A stretch of 64,000 nucleotides of DNA, taken from contig JADHML010000005.1 of NCBI GenBank assembly GCA_016780065.1, forward strand, positions 1-64,000, written 5' to 3'. The notes beneath the pieces were generated by a model that ran no database searches, was not told the origin of the DNA, and saw nothing but the letters and a program-made list of their open reading frames with translations. Of the stretch, positions 1 through 5,077 are shown in pieces. How positions within the stretch are numbered: the stretch's first letter is position 1; each line of letters begins with the position of its first letter. A program made the position numbers and the translations under genes. The DNA comes from Flavobacteriaceae bacterium (GTDB lineage Bacteria; Bacteroidota; Bacteroidia; Flavobacteriales; Flavobacteriaceae).

Positions 1-2356
1 CGGCTTGGTCGGCCTCACTTTGCTGCCATACACCTTCAAATAAAAAGTCAAAGTTGGCAGTGATGGGTTTGCCGATAAACAAACCACTCGCTACATCGTC
101 TACCTCACCATTTTGTCCAAGTCCCAATGAAACAATTTCATTGTGAATGGACGTAAAATTGAAGTTGGCATTCCAAGTAAATTCATCAGCAATTTTTTGT
201 GTAGTAGTTAACACAAGTTCAAAACCAGAATTTTCTGTTTCACCAATGTTGTCTGTAATGAAGCCAATTCCTTGTACAGGTGAAATTGTTCTATTCAACA
301 ACAAGTCCGTTGTATTAGTATGGAAATAGTTAACGCTTCCTGAAACACTGTTGTTCAATAATCCAAAATCCATTCCTATATTTAAAGATCTACTTGTCTC
401 CCAACTAAGCGCTGTATTCGCAAGGTTTTGTGGAAGCACACCAGGAAGTGAGGTACTACCGTCCACAAAGTTTTGCTCTTTAAACTTTGCAATAGATAAA
501 TATGGATCTAGTGCTTGGTTTCCATTCTCACCATAAGAGGCTCTTAACTTAAGAAAGTTGAGCGTATTACTTACTGGGAAAAAGGGTTCATTAGAAATAA
601 TCCATGCTCCAGCAACGGTTCCAAATTTCCCCCATTTATTATCGTTTCCAAAACCAGAATATCCGTCTCTTCTTCCTGTTAAGGTAATAAAATACTTCTC
701 ATTAAACCCATAATTGAGCCGTAGCATAGAAGAAATTAAATCGGTACGGAAAAAAGTAAATGAAGGCATAACAACTGAAGCTTGTGCAGGATTATAATAA
801 CTAGTGATATCGTTAGGGAAGCCTTGTGCTTCTAGGATGTCAGAAGTTGACTGGTCCTTTTGGTAGCTATATAATGCCGTCACACCAACAAAGTGCTTAT
901 CAAATGTGCGGTTGTAATCCAAAATATTTTCAATAACTGTAGAAGTGAATCTAGAAGTTTGCACCTCAGCCATTCCGCCAGCAGCCAAGCCAACCTGTGT
1001 ATTACGGCCAGCATAAGTACTTTGATTTACAGCACGTTCAGTTATACCTGAGTTAAGACGATAGCTTAAGCCCTGAATAAATGGCACATCAACCAATAAG
1101 TAATTATTTGTAATTAATTGTCTAGACTCGTCTGTATTTTGATAGTTAATAGGCTCTAGTGGATTGCCAATATCTGTGAATGTTGGCCAAGGAAAAATAC
1201 TTAACTCACCGTTATCCTGGTATGGATTGATAAGCGGATTCTTTCTTCCTAAATCACTGAAACTTGGGCTTAAACCGCTCATATCATCTGCTGAAAACTG
1301 TGTACGAGTTCCAACTCTAAGCCAATCGGTAACCTGAACATCCAAATTAACTCGACCAAGCGATCTTTCATAATCATCGTTGATTGCAACCCCTTTTACA
1401 TCAAGGTAGCTTCCTCCAAAGTAGTAGCTCACCGGTCCTGATGTTCCAGAAACTGATAAATTGTGTTGCTGACTTTGGCCAGTTCGAACACCTAGCTCCT
1501 GCCAATCAACAAAGTTTCCATTATCAAAATTTTCTTGCTCTGTTGTTGTAACGTTGCCTGGCTCACGTGCTTCTTTAAATGCAAAAAATTCTTGTGCATT
1601 CATGTAGTTAGGGAGTCGATCGTATTGTTGAGTAGCAAATCGACTGTCAAAAGTCACTAATGGTTTACCCTCTGTACCTTTTTTTGTGGTAATAAGAATT
1701 ACTCCATTTGCTCCTCTCGATCCATAGATTGCAGTTGCTGAAGCATCTTTTAATACTTGAAGGGACTCAATATCATTTACGTTAATGTCCCTAAGCTGAC
1801 CATTGTATGGAATGCGGTCTACAATAATTAGCGGACTATTATTAGCGAGGATAGAATTTCTCCCACGAACAATAATGGATTCTTCTGAGGCTGCACCAGC
1901 CTGATTAGTCGTAACATTAATTCCTGGAATTGCACCCTGAATAGCTTGAGTAACATTTAAATTTGGAACTTTTTCCAAACGCTGAGTAGATAAAGATGAT
2001 ACTGAACCCGTATAATCTCTTAGCTTTTGAGAACCATATCCCACAACGATTACTTCTTGGAGCACTTCCGTATCTTTCTGAAGTGAAATATTGAAAGACG
2101 TATTTTCTCCAATTAGTATGTCTGTTGAAAGGAAGCCAACATAAGAGATGGTTAGTTTTTCTGAACCTTCAGGGACTGAAAGGGAGAAAGTTCCGTCAAT
2201 ATCAGTAATACTTGTTATTCCTGATGGACTAACAATTACAGTAGCTCCAGGTAAAGGAATATTGTCATTATCCAACACCTGGCCTTTTAATATGCTAGTC
2301 TGTGCACTGACAACCAGACAAGACAAAATAAATAATGTCGTAATTAGTTTTTTCAT
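1..2356 (-). CDS. SusC/RagA-family TonB-linked outer membrane protein (partial, runs off left edge)
   Basis: Minus-strand translation from ATG at 2356: MKKLITTLFILSCLVVSAQTSILKGQVLDNDNIPLPGATVIV..., carboxypeptidase-regulatory-like domain followed by TonB plug (EVIVVGYGSQK, IQGAIPGINV, ILIRG/VRGRNS-like, YGSRGANGVILITTKKG). Confidence 0.93.
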   Translation of the reverse strand, partial: MKKLITTLFILSCLVVSAQTSILKGQVLDNDNIPLPGATVIVSPSGITSITDIDGTFSLSVPEGSEKLTISYVGFLSTDILIGENTSFNISLQKDTEVLQEVIVVGYGSQKLRDYTGSVSSLSTQRLEKVPNLNVTQAIQGAIPGINVTTNQAGAASEESIIVRGRNSILANNSPLIIVDRIPYNGQLRDINVNDIESLQVLKDASATAIYGSRGANGVILITTKKGTEGKPLVTFDSRFATQQYDRLPNYMNAQEFFAFKEAREPGNVTTTEQENFDNGNFVDWQELGVRTGQSQQHNLSVSGTSGPVSYYFGGSYLDVKGVAINDDYERSLGRVNLDVQVTDWLRVGTRTQFSADDMSGLSPSFSDLGRKNPLINPYQDNGELSIFPWPTFTDIGNPLEPINYQNTDESRQLITNNYLLVDVPFIQGLSYRLNSGITERAVNQSTYAGRNTQVGLAAGGMAEVQTSRFTSTVIENILDYNRTFDKHFVGVTALYSYQKDQSTSDILEAQGFPNDITSYYNPAQASVVMPSFTFFRTDLISSMLRLNYGFNEKYFITLTGRRDGYSGFGNDNKWGKFGTVAGAWIISNEPFFPVSNTLNFLKLRASYGENGNQALDPYLSIAKFKEQNFVDGSTSLPGVLPQNLANTALSWETSRSLNIGMDFGLLNNSVSGSVNYFHTNTTDLLLNRTISPVQGIGFITDNIGETENSGFELVLTTTQKIADEFTWNANFNFTSIHNEIVSLGLGQNGEVDDVASGLFIGKPITANFDFLFEGVWQQSEADQA

Positions 2357-2680
2357 TGTTTTAGTTATTGTGTGAGAAATTAAGTTGTTTCATATTGTAA
2401 ATTTGAAACACCAATAAAGACATATAACATTATCCTAAAGCTATCTCATTGTTAAAAATAAATTTTATTTGTGTTTGAAAATAGTTATACAAATGTTTTA
2501 AAATCTTTAAATGAAAAGTTGTGTTTATGCAACTTGTTTTTTATCAATGCCTTGTGAAAAAAATAATTTAAGATTCATTAATATTGGAGTAAAACCAATG
2601 TTTTGAACCAAGCCGGAAAACTCTTACTAAGGGTCCGTAATTTATGATAAAGGATAAGCCAATTCCTGTCTGAATAGTGA

Positions 2681-3640
2681 TTATGGCAAAATTTCAGCCA
2701 CTACAAACAAACTTCCACCCACAAAAATCAAATCGTTTCTAGAAGCTGCTGTTTTGGCTGCCTCAAAAGCCTTTTGTACACTATCGTGTGTACTAAAACT
2801 GAAGTCATTCTTAATAAATTCAACTGCCAGTTCAGACGTATTCATTGCTCTAGGAACATTTGCGGTACATAAATAGTAATGCGCTTTTTTGGGAAGGAAT
2901 GTTGTTATTTCACTTACTTTTTTATCAGAAACTACTCCAAAAATAATATGCAATTTATCAGATTGTTCCTTTTTTAATTGTGCAAAAACGGCTTGCAATC
3001 CTGCTGGATTATGCGCCACATCAGCTATAATTTTGGGCTGATTATCGAGTATTTCCCATCTCCCACGCAAACCTGTGTTTTTGACAACCCGTTGTAGTCC
3101 ATCTATTATGTGTAGCTTAGAAACTGAAAACTGTGATAGCACATGCAATAGTGAAATCACCCCGGTGATATTTTGTTTTTGATAATCACCCAATAAATCG
3201 GTGGTAAATTGACGCTGGGAAGCCAAGTGTAAGGATGCGTTTTTCTCTTGCGCTATTGCTTCAAAAACGGGAAAGGTTTCAGCATCGAGCTCCACCACAC
3301 CCACAGTCGTTCTGGGTTTGATGATTCCTGCCTTTTCTGCCGCTATTTCAGCTCGGGTAGTCCCTAAAAACTGCTGGTGATCTAAACTGATATTGGTAAT
3401 CAAGCAAGCTTCTGGGGAAATCACATTGGTAGCGTCCAATCGTCCACCCAAACCAACTTCAATTACCGCTACATCAACCTGTTGAGAAGCGAAATAATCA
3501 AAGGCAAGTGCTACTGTCATTTCGAAAAACGAAAAAGCTTCGGCTTCAAAAAATGACTTGTTGTTTTGCACAAAAGAAACAATAAATTCCTCAGCTACTG
3601 GCGTACCATTTATTCGGATGCGCTCTCTAAAGTCTTTCAA
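2681..3640 (-). pseudogene. folC: FolC (folylpolyglutamate/dihydrofolate synthase) C-terminal fragment; N-terminal P-loop region absent
   Basis: ORF begins at (TTG)KDFRERIRING, which aligns with the internal FolC motif SPHLKDFRERIRING; the upstream in-frame codons are TAG CTT CCA CAT. No GTNGKGS motif, and only about 100 bp separate it from the tmRNA. The downstream Mur-ligase-like core (VIEVGLGGRLDATN, SLDHQQFLG, EKAGIIKP) is intact. Confidence 0.75.
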
Positions 3641-3744
3641 ATGTGGAAGCTAGGGGAGTAAAATCGAACTATTTCGGTCAAGACTTAACCATTTTACTAA
3701 AAAGTTATTTCCAAGAATAAATTATTATTCCCGGAAATAATTTG

Positions 3745-4141
3745 TGGAGTCGGAGGGAATCGAACCCTCGTCCAAACAAGTGAAGGAACAGCTTTCTACA
3801 AGTTTAGTTCTCGTTTGGTTTTCGAATATAGACTGACCGAAAACCGCCTATCTACACCTTATCTTCTTTATTTTAAAACCCAGCCGAAGCATCCGGATTT
3901 CTATGTTGACTTTGATGGTGCCTTGAAGTGTGATGCCGTCAACAAGGGCCTCACCAAGACATCTCGCCTTCCCGCCTAGCGGGACTAGGGCCTGGACTTA
4001 CTATAATTCAGTCGATTAGGCTGCAAGAGCGTAGTTATTCTCGCCATTTAAAATGGTGGTACTATGAGATTTACGAGCTGTAGTCCAGCGCTCGACTTGC
4101 TTACCGTTTCATCAGGCTTGCTGTCAAAACCAGTCGACCCC
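3745..4141 (-). ncRNA. ssrA: tmRNA (transfer-messenger RNA), encoded tag GENNYALAA
   Basis: Reverse complement starts GGGGTCGACTGGTTTTGACAGC and ends GGACGAGGGTTCGATTCCCTCCGACTCCA; the acceptor ends pair; internal reading frame GGC GAG AAT AAC TAC GCT CTT GCA GCC TAA = GENNYALAA*. Confidence 0.96.
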
Positions 4142-4210: not shown

Positions 4211-5023
4211 CTACAAAGAAGCCATCGCTTCCTTGAGTCGAGACAAACGTGTGAGTAATCCCTCGGCCAGTTCGAGAGGGAGCATATTTGCACCGTCACT
4301 TTTAGCATTTTTAGGATCAAAATGGGTTTCCATAAATAGGCCATCCACACCGGCAGCAATTCCTGCGCGAGCCATGGTTTCAATAAGTTCAGGTCTACCT
4401 CCTGTCACACCACTCGATTGGTTGGGTTGTTGCAAGGAGTGGGTCACATCTAGAATGGTGGGGCCAAATTGCCTCATGGTTGGAATACTTCTAAAATCAA
4501 CCACCATGTCCTGATATCCAAACATGGTCCCTCTGTCGGTGAGCCAAGCATGAGGGTTTCCAGCATCGTGCACTTTTCGAACGGCATGTTGCATGCTTTC
4601 CGGACTCATAAATTGTCCTTTTTTAAGATTTACCACTTTGCCAGTCTCAGCTGCTGCAACGACTAGGTCTGTCTGTCGCACCAAAAAAGCAGGAATCTGT
4701 AAAACATCAACATATTCGGCTGCTCTAGCAGCGTCTTCTGTTTGATGGATGTCTGTAACCGTTGGAACGCCATGGATTTGATTTACTTTCTGTAGAATCT
4801 TCAAGGCTTTTTCATCTCCAATCCCTGTAAAACTATCTATGCGACTTCGGTTTGCTTTTTTAAAACTTCCCTTAAAAACCAAAGGAATTTCAAGTTTGTC
4901 GCAAATAGTTGAGAGTTGTTCTGCGATACGCAGGGCCATTTCTTCTCCTTCTATGGCACAAGGTCCAGCCAGTAGAAAAAAACGATTAGATGGGGTATTG
5001 ACAAACTCCTGGACATTCTTCAT
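4211..5023 (-). CDS. kdsA: 3-deoxy-8-phosphooctulonate synthase
   Basis: MKNVQEFVNTPSNRFFLLAGPCAIEGEEMA...VFKGSFKKANRSR...LTDRGTMFGYQDMVVDFRSIP; classical KdsA motifs. Confidence 0.96.
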   Translation of the reverse strand: MKNVQEFVNTPSNRFFLLAGPCAIEGEEMALRIAEQLSTICDKLEIPLVFKGSFKKANRSRIDSFTGIGDEKALKILQKVNQIHGVPTVTDIHQTEDAARAAEYVDVLQIPAFLVRQTDLVVAAAETGKVVNLKKGQFMSPESMQHAVRKVHDAGNPHAWLTDRGTMFGYQDMVVDFRSIPTMRQFGPTILDVTHSLQQPNQSSGVTGGRPELIETMARAGIAAGVDGLFMETHFDPKNAKSDGANMLPLELAEGLLTRLSRLKEAMASL

Positions 5024-5077
5024 GCTGTAAAAATACAATATATAGTCGTTGAGGGGTAAAAGATTTTAAAATTAGGG

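Follow-up and report, generated by a model that had tools for sequence, protein, structure and literature searches.

A 5′-truncated folC fragment of foreign origin adjoins a tmRNA-end-like border motif behind ssrA in a flavobacterial contig

The window analyzed here is the first 64 kb of a 74,099-bp contig (C14) from an assembly (G000) of 1.02 Mb in 23 contigs, with an estimated completeness of 58%. Close to the start of the contig, the minus strand reads from the tmRNA through a spacer of ~100 bp into a folC frame; the gene for a SusC-type receptor comes next, after 324 bp without coding sequence. The identities of nhaD, gltB, kdsA, and typA used below were assigned by eye from the sequence, without a model. 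A comparison of GC content (37.6% vs. 38.7%) is uninformative. The features, all on the minus strand, are as follows.

2..2356, minus strand: SusC-type TonB-dependent receptor, incomplete because the contig ends at window position 1, 99.2% identical to that of UBA7446 (L104)
2586..2611, minus strand: 26-bp stretch weakly similar to the central part of tRNA-Val (its score is reached by 1 of 500 shuffles)
2681..3646, minus strand: 5′-truncated folC fragment, foreign to the genus, covering codons 81–401 of a 401-codon gene, without an ATG start and without the P-loop
3642..3647, minus strand: TCCACA, the 6-bp core and junction point, present alike in the border motif, at the 3′ end of the tmRNA, and in the intact folC gene of L108
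3642..3675, minus strand: border motif GAAATAGTTCGATTTTACTCCCCTAGCTTCCACA, a member of a dispersed family with 55 distinct copies
3647..3742, minus strand: ~96-bp cargo-less border unit, 93% identical to a copy in G427:C76
3744..4141, minus strand: tmRNA (ssrA), intact
4211..5038, minus strand: kdsA, the native neighbor of ssrA, named by eye

The first-pass annotation described a folC gene that has lost its 5′ end together with the P-loop, that is preceded by an in-frame TAG, and that lies about 100 bp from the tmRNA, and each of these points holds. The match of the frame to the FolC profile TIGR01499 runs from position 53/54 to 397 of 400, and alignment to full-length relatives places its first residues at 81–82 (P-H-LKDFRERIRING), so residues 1–80, including the GTNGKGS P-loop of the N-terminal ATP-binding part, are missing. 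The TAG is at 3652–3650, just before (L)PHL. In likeness to a functional FolC, the fragment has intact middle and C-terminal Mur ligase domains (PF08245 and PF02875, both above cut-off), but it differs from one in having neither the P-loop domain nor a usual start codon, and it is probably a dead passenger. Its substitutions are 13 nonsynonymous and 8 synonymous, and tests for the neutral decay expected of an old truncation are not significant.

In the same-genus loci that we read, folC is full length and lies away from ssrA, in the order nhaD-folC-tRNA-Val(tac) and near the glutamate synthase gene gltB, and the ssrA-kdsA-typA order of the window is conserved in relatives. Because folC is found elsewhere in these relatives, a folC beside ssrA is out of its usual place. 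The protein encoded by the fragment is only 50–52% identical to same-genus FolC, whereas members of the genus are 69–94% identical among themselves; its best matches, at 76–89%, belong to another clade that includes G194 (genus g183), MED-G59, UBA7446, and others. With these values we rejected vertical divergence of the resident gene. The annotation had read the break as a scar of site-specific integration and deletion at ssrA that removed the front of the resident folC. A break at a site resembling the tmRNA end fits that model, and two of its elements survive, namely the attachment-like motif at the break and the variability of the ssrA locus. The deletion itself is not supported: folC is not beside ssrA in the relatives read, the fragment is far more distant from the genus gene than genus members are from each other, and DNA like that of UBA7446 follows the fragment. 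We therefore regard removal of a resident folC front at ssrA as very improbable.

A second folC was not found in the assembly, where the 2681–3646 frame is the only one, and the assembly is itself 58% complete. Searches of the assembly for nhaD, gltB, and tRNA-Val(tac) also found none of the three, with no positive control within the genome. Since these neighbors are missing from the assembly, the full-length resident gene is probably carried by the unassembled 42%. With the neighbors equally absent, there is no ground for saying that the organism has lost folC. More generally, when a metagenome contig ends in a truncated essential gene, the organism may still possess that gene.

Judged by sequence identity, the foreign stretch is not limited to folC, and the window from 1 to 3647 is foreign to the genus. 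Piece by piece, its DNA is about 97–99% identical to three species of the donor clade: 3647–3255 is ~97% identical to L108 (the same sequence as G194), 3254–2691 is 98% identical to MED-G59, and 2690–1 is 92–100% identical to UBA7446. The folC gene is intact in all three species, and in UBA7446 the full-length gene stands between nhaD and the same SusC gene as in the window. From 3741 on, the window is ~73–77% identical to both clades near ssrA (ssrA-kdsA-typA). The switch between two parents near 3256 lies in only 4 bp common to both, and other folC genes of the donor clade are a similar patchwork. From these two observations the mosaic looks like natural exchange and not an assembly path switch, a cause that we rejected given the 4 bp shared at the switch. 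Viral carriage was likewise rejected, as the viral contigs contained neither a related folC nor a copy of the border motif.

The point at which the foreign gene begins is sharply defined. Identity to the L108 folC starts at 3647, inside TCCACA (3647–3642), so that the window reads CCCCTAGCTTCCACATTTG where the intact gene of L108 reads CCTCTCCACATTTG; the tmRNA 3′ end carries the same hexamer in the context ACTCCACA. The resemblance of the break to the tmRNA 3′ end, which had been pointed out from the sequence of the window, is borne out against shuffled spacers, with p = 0.014 under strict gaps and p = 0.0005 under permissive gaps, although a strict local alignment to the tmRNA end alone is thus only modestly significant. 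The exact ~20-bp repeat of the ssrA 3′ end is absent from the boundary; the border is only tRNA-end-like, sharing GTTCGAT and TCCACA. A closer match is to an independently defined dispersed motif, from which the break differs at 1 of 31 positions (0.00 matches expected in shuffled windows), and which shares GTTCGA and CTCCAC with the tmRNA end. The border pattern matches once in the 64-kb window, again with 0.00 expected.

The 55 distinct copies of this motif give the consensus AAAATAGTTCGAYTTYACTCCCYTnnnCTCCAC, AAAATAGTTCGAnTTnACTCCCnTnnnCTCCAC, and all of them diverge after CTCCAC, which is exactly where folC begins in the window. Allowing 1 mismatch, AGTTCGAYTTYACTCCCCT has matches in 10 of 13 genomes of the genus, with zero for a reversed-pattern control. 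The exact sequence AGTTCGAYTTYACTCCCYT occurs in 12 of 400 genomes of the family and in 7 of 237 sampled genera, in assemblies all of 1.0–2.7 Mb. The window unit consists of a hairpin with a 16-bp stem (3740–3705), then T5, a second hairpin, and the border motif, and it folds as a terminator-like hairpin plus the second hairpin with a z-score of −4.0. Its closest match outside the window is the donor-clade copy in G427:C76, and same-genus copies are 83–85% identical. This best match in the donor clade suggests that the unit and the folC fragment may have arrived together.

Elsewhere the borders delimit cassettes. At least four successive borders, mostly 1.6–6 kb apart, occur in each of two contigs, G007:C15 and G010:C23, with variable cargo between the tRNA-end-like repeats; the window itself contains one border. 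In the genomes read, the cargo between or beside borders includes sulfatases, SusC/D, TonB receptors, phytase, PhoX, and GDPD, as well as a glycosyltransferase, CotH, and YHYH proteins. None of the other border copies read is fused to a core gene. Consecutive ~101-bp cargo-less units, each with a terminator-like hairpin, stand in tandem at G003:C8:37456-37676 (L189), and a sequence like the left-end hairpin lies behind tRNA-Ala in two genomes.

What is established is that folC is truncated and foreign, that its junction lies at the point where the border copies diverge, that the border family is genus-wide, and that the cargo varies. For how these came together, we give an even chance to the reading that recombination at the 6-bp TCCACA core attached donor-clade DNA behind ssrA. 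The donor would belong to a different clade of marine flavobacteria, related to UBA7446, MED-G59, and G194, and the transferred stretch would consist of the border unit, folC codons 81–401, and the SusC gene onward. TCCACA occurs at the 3′ end of the tmRNA, where the border motif ends, and by chance at folC codons 80–82; the candidate site types are the tmRNA end, the border motif, and TCTCCACA, and recombination at the core would place the donor-clade DNA at the ssrA border. The junction would have been made in a living cell by a site-specific recombinase, a candidate being the large serine recombinase that relatives carry at ssrA.

A joining in the cell could also have been unrelated to the border system, if foreign DNA was taken up and joined illegitimately at a 6-bp microhomology. 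Just 6 bp are common at the junction, and the clade often exchanges DNA within folC by homologous recombination, both of which are in keeping with such an event. It would leave to coincidence that the break falls at the divergence point of 55 border copies, and we consider it improbable.

The main rival is that the contig is chimeric, its last 3.7 kb coming from another organism of the donor clade in the sample. We take this as a real possibility, though clearly less likely than not. The repeated ~96-bp border unit, a dispersed repeat, could have let the assembler or DNA amplification link ssrA to the other organism. The foreign part matches other species at ~97–99% identity and ends at the contig start, and the flanking ssrA-kdsA-typA region is only 73–77% identical to both clades; a foreign stretch at the very end of a contig from an incomplete assembly is in the usual place of a misjoin and counts against joining in the cell. 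The junction was seen in no other genome, and this also weighs against joining in the cell, as do the failure to find a recombinase in the assembly and the lack of core-gene fusions among the other border copies read. Against a chimera, the border/folC junction shares only 6 bp, not enough overlap for a join in an assembly graph, which means that the junction must exist on some molecule; the cut falls exactly at the motif end; and the switch near 3256, with its 4 bp and with mosaics in other clade members, is not an assembly path switch. If the join was made inside the 96-bp unit, the border/folC junction may then be real in another organism.

Recombination at TCCACA would need an enzyme, and the ssrA locus of the genus offers one type. 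Among seven genus members read, the DNA behind ssrA differs and encodes, among other things, a permease, TonB receptors, or a large serine recombinase. The large serine recombinase is beside ssrA in G007, and remnants are beside ssrA in G004 and G370; G296 has one next to tRNA-Met and also a decayed copy that stops at a border. Tyrosine integrases had been anticipated near ssrA in sister strains, and what is seen there is only of the serine type. No recombinase was found in the window's own assembly (58% complete), and the ORFs scanned in the arrays included no tyrosine recombinase and no integration module.

Several known systems resemble this arrangement. The ssrA-specific genomic islands of Dehalococcoides carry tandem cargo downstream of ssrA bounded by repeats of the ssrA 3′ end, with serine recombinases as integrases, many islands without an integrase of their own, and a conserved motif beside the repeat (PMC3146451). 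The variable DNA directly downstream of ssrA in the seven genus members is similar. For a serine recombinase next to ssrA the picture is mixed: G007 has one, G004 and G370 have remnants, and G000, at 58% completeness, yielded none. Unlike those islands, the flavobacterial borders are only tRNA-end-like (GTTCGA, CTCCAC) and are spread over many loci other than ssrA and tRNA-Ala, the family includes cargo-less units of ~101 bp, and the arrays read yielded no integration module. In aquatic bacteria, additive flexible genomic islands grow by site-directed addition of cassettes marked by repeated tRNA 3′ ends (PMC10872708, PMC5217437). The flavobacterial cassettes are likewise separated by repeated tRNA-end-like motifs and vary in cargo, but their border is not an exact copy of a tRNA or tmRNA end and their hosts are small-genome flavobacteria. 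Tycheposons are tRNA-linked cargo carriers of streamlined marine bacteria with a tyrosine recombinase (PMC10872708). The flavobacterial elements share the tRNA-linked carriage of cargo in such bacteria, but a tyrosine recombinase was not found in the arrays read, one integrase-like protein lying ~3 kb from borders in G328. Full-text literature searches returned nothing specific on a flavobacterial version of the border system, which is weak evidence.

A broader extension, which we offer tentatively and hold to be rather doubtful, is that at least seven genera of small-genome marine flavobacteria share a cassette-shuffling system that can also use TCCACA sites in core genes. If so, borders mimicking the end of an alanine-type tRNA or tmRNA would move polysaccharide- and phosphorus-scavenging genes, which vary strongly between marine flavobacteria, from genus to genus, and chance TCCACA cores in core genes such as folC would let chromosomal pieces travel along. 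A compact motif that marks, and perhaps drives, cross-genus exchange would be a handle for predicting cassette boundaries and for finding the recombinase.

Some further observations concern the neighborhoods of folC, ssrA, and the borders. In most relatives, tRNA-Val is the gene behind folC, and the 26-bp stretch at 2586..2611 is possibly a remnant of it. Behind folC in UBA7446 (L104:3963-4290) and in the window (2357–2680), tRNA-Val was not found and a SusC gene takes its place, which makes the position a possible further site of insertion. In G010, the tRNA-Val(tac) behind folC is broken after ~50 bases (L027, G010:C44). The folC alleles of the marine clade (L103–L108) are patchworks with sharp switches between ~95% and 60–70% identity, which suggests frequent exchange inside this essential gene. 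In G007:C10, the large serine recombinase directly behind ssrA (L067:10321-11907, minus strand) lies in a region that looks like an integrated restriction-modification island and that encodes an N6_N4_Mtase DNA methylase as well as a ResIII helicase. The integrase-like protein of G328 (L203:13766-15064, minus strand, in G328:C2) carries Arm-DNA-bind_5 and Phage_int_SAM_5 domains and has two border motifs at that distance of ~3 kb.
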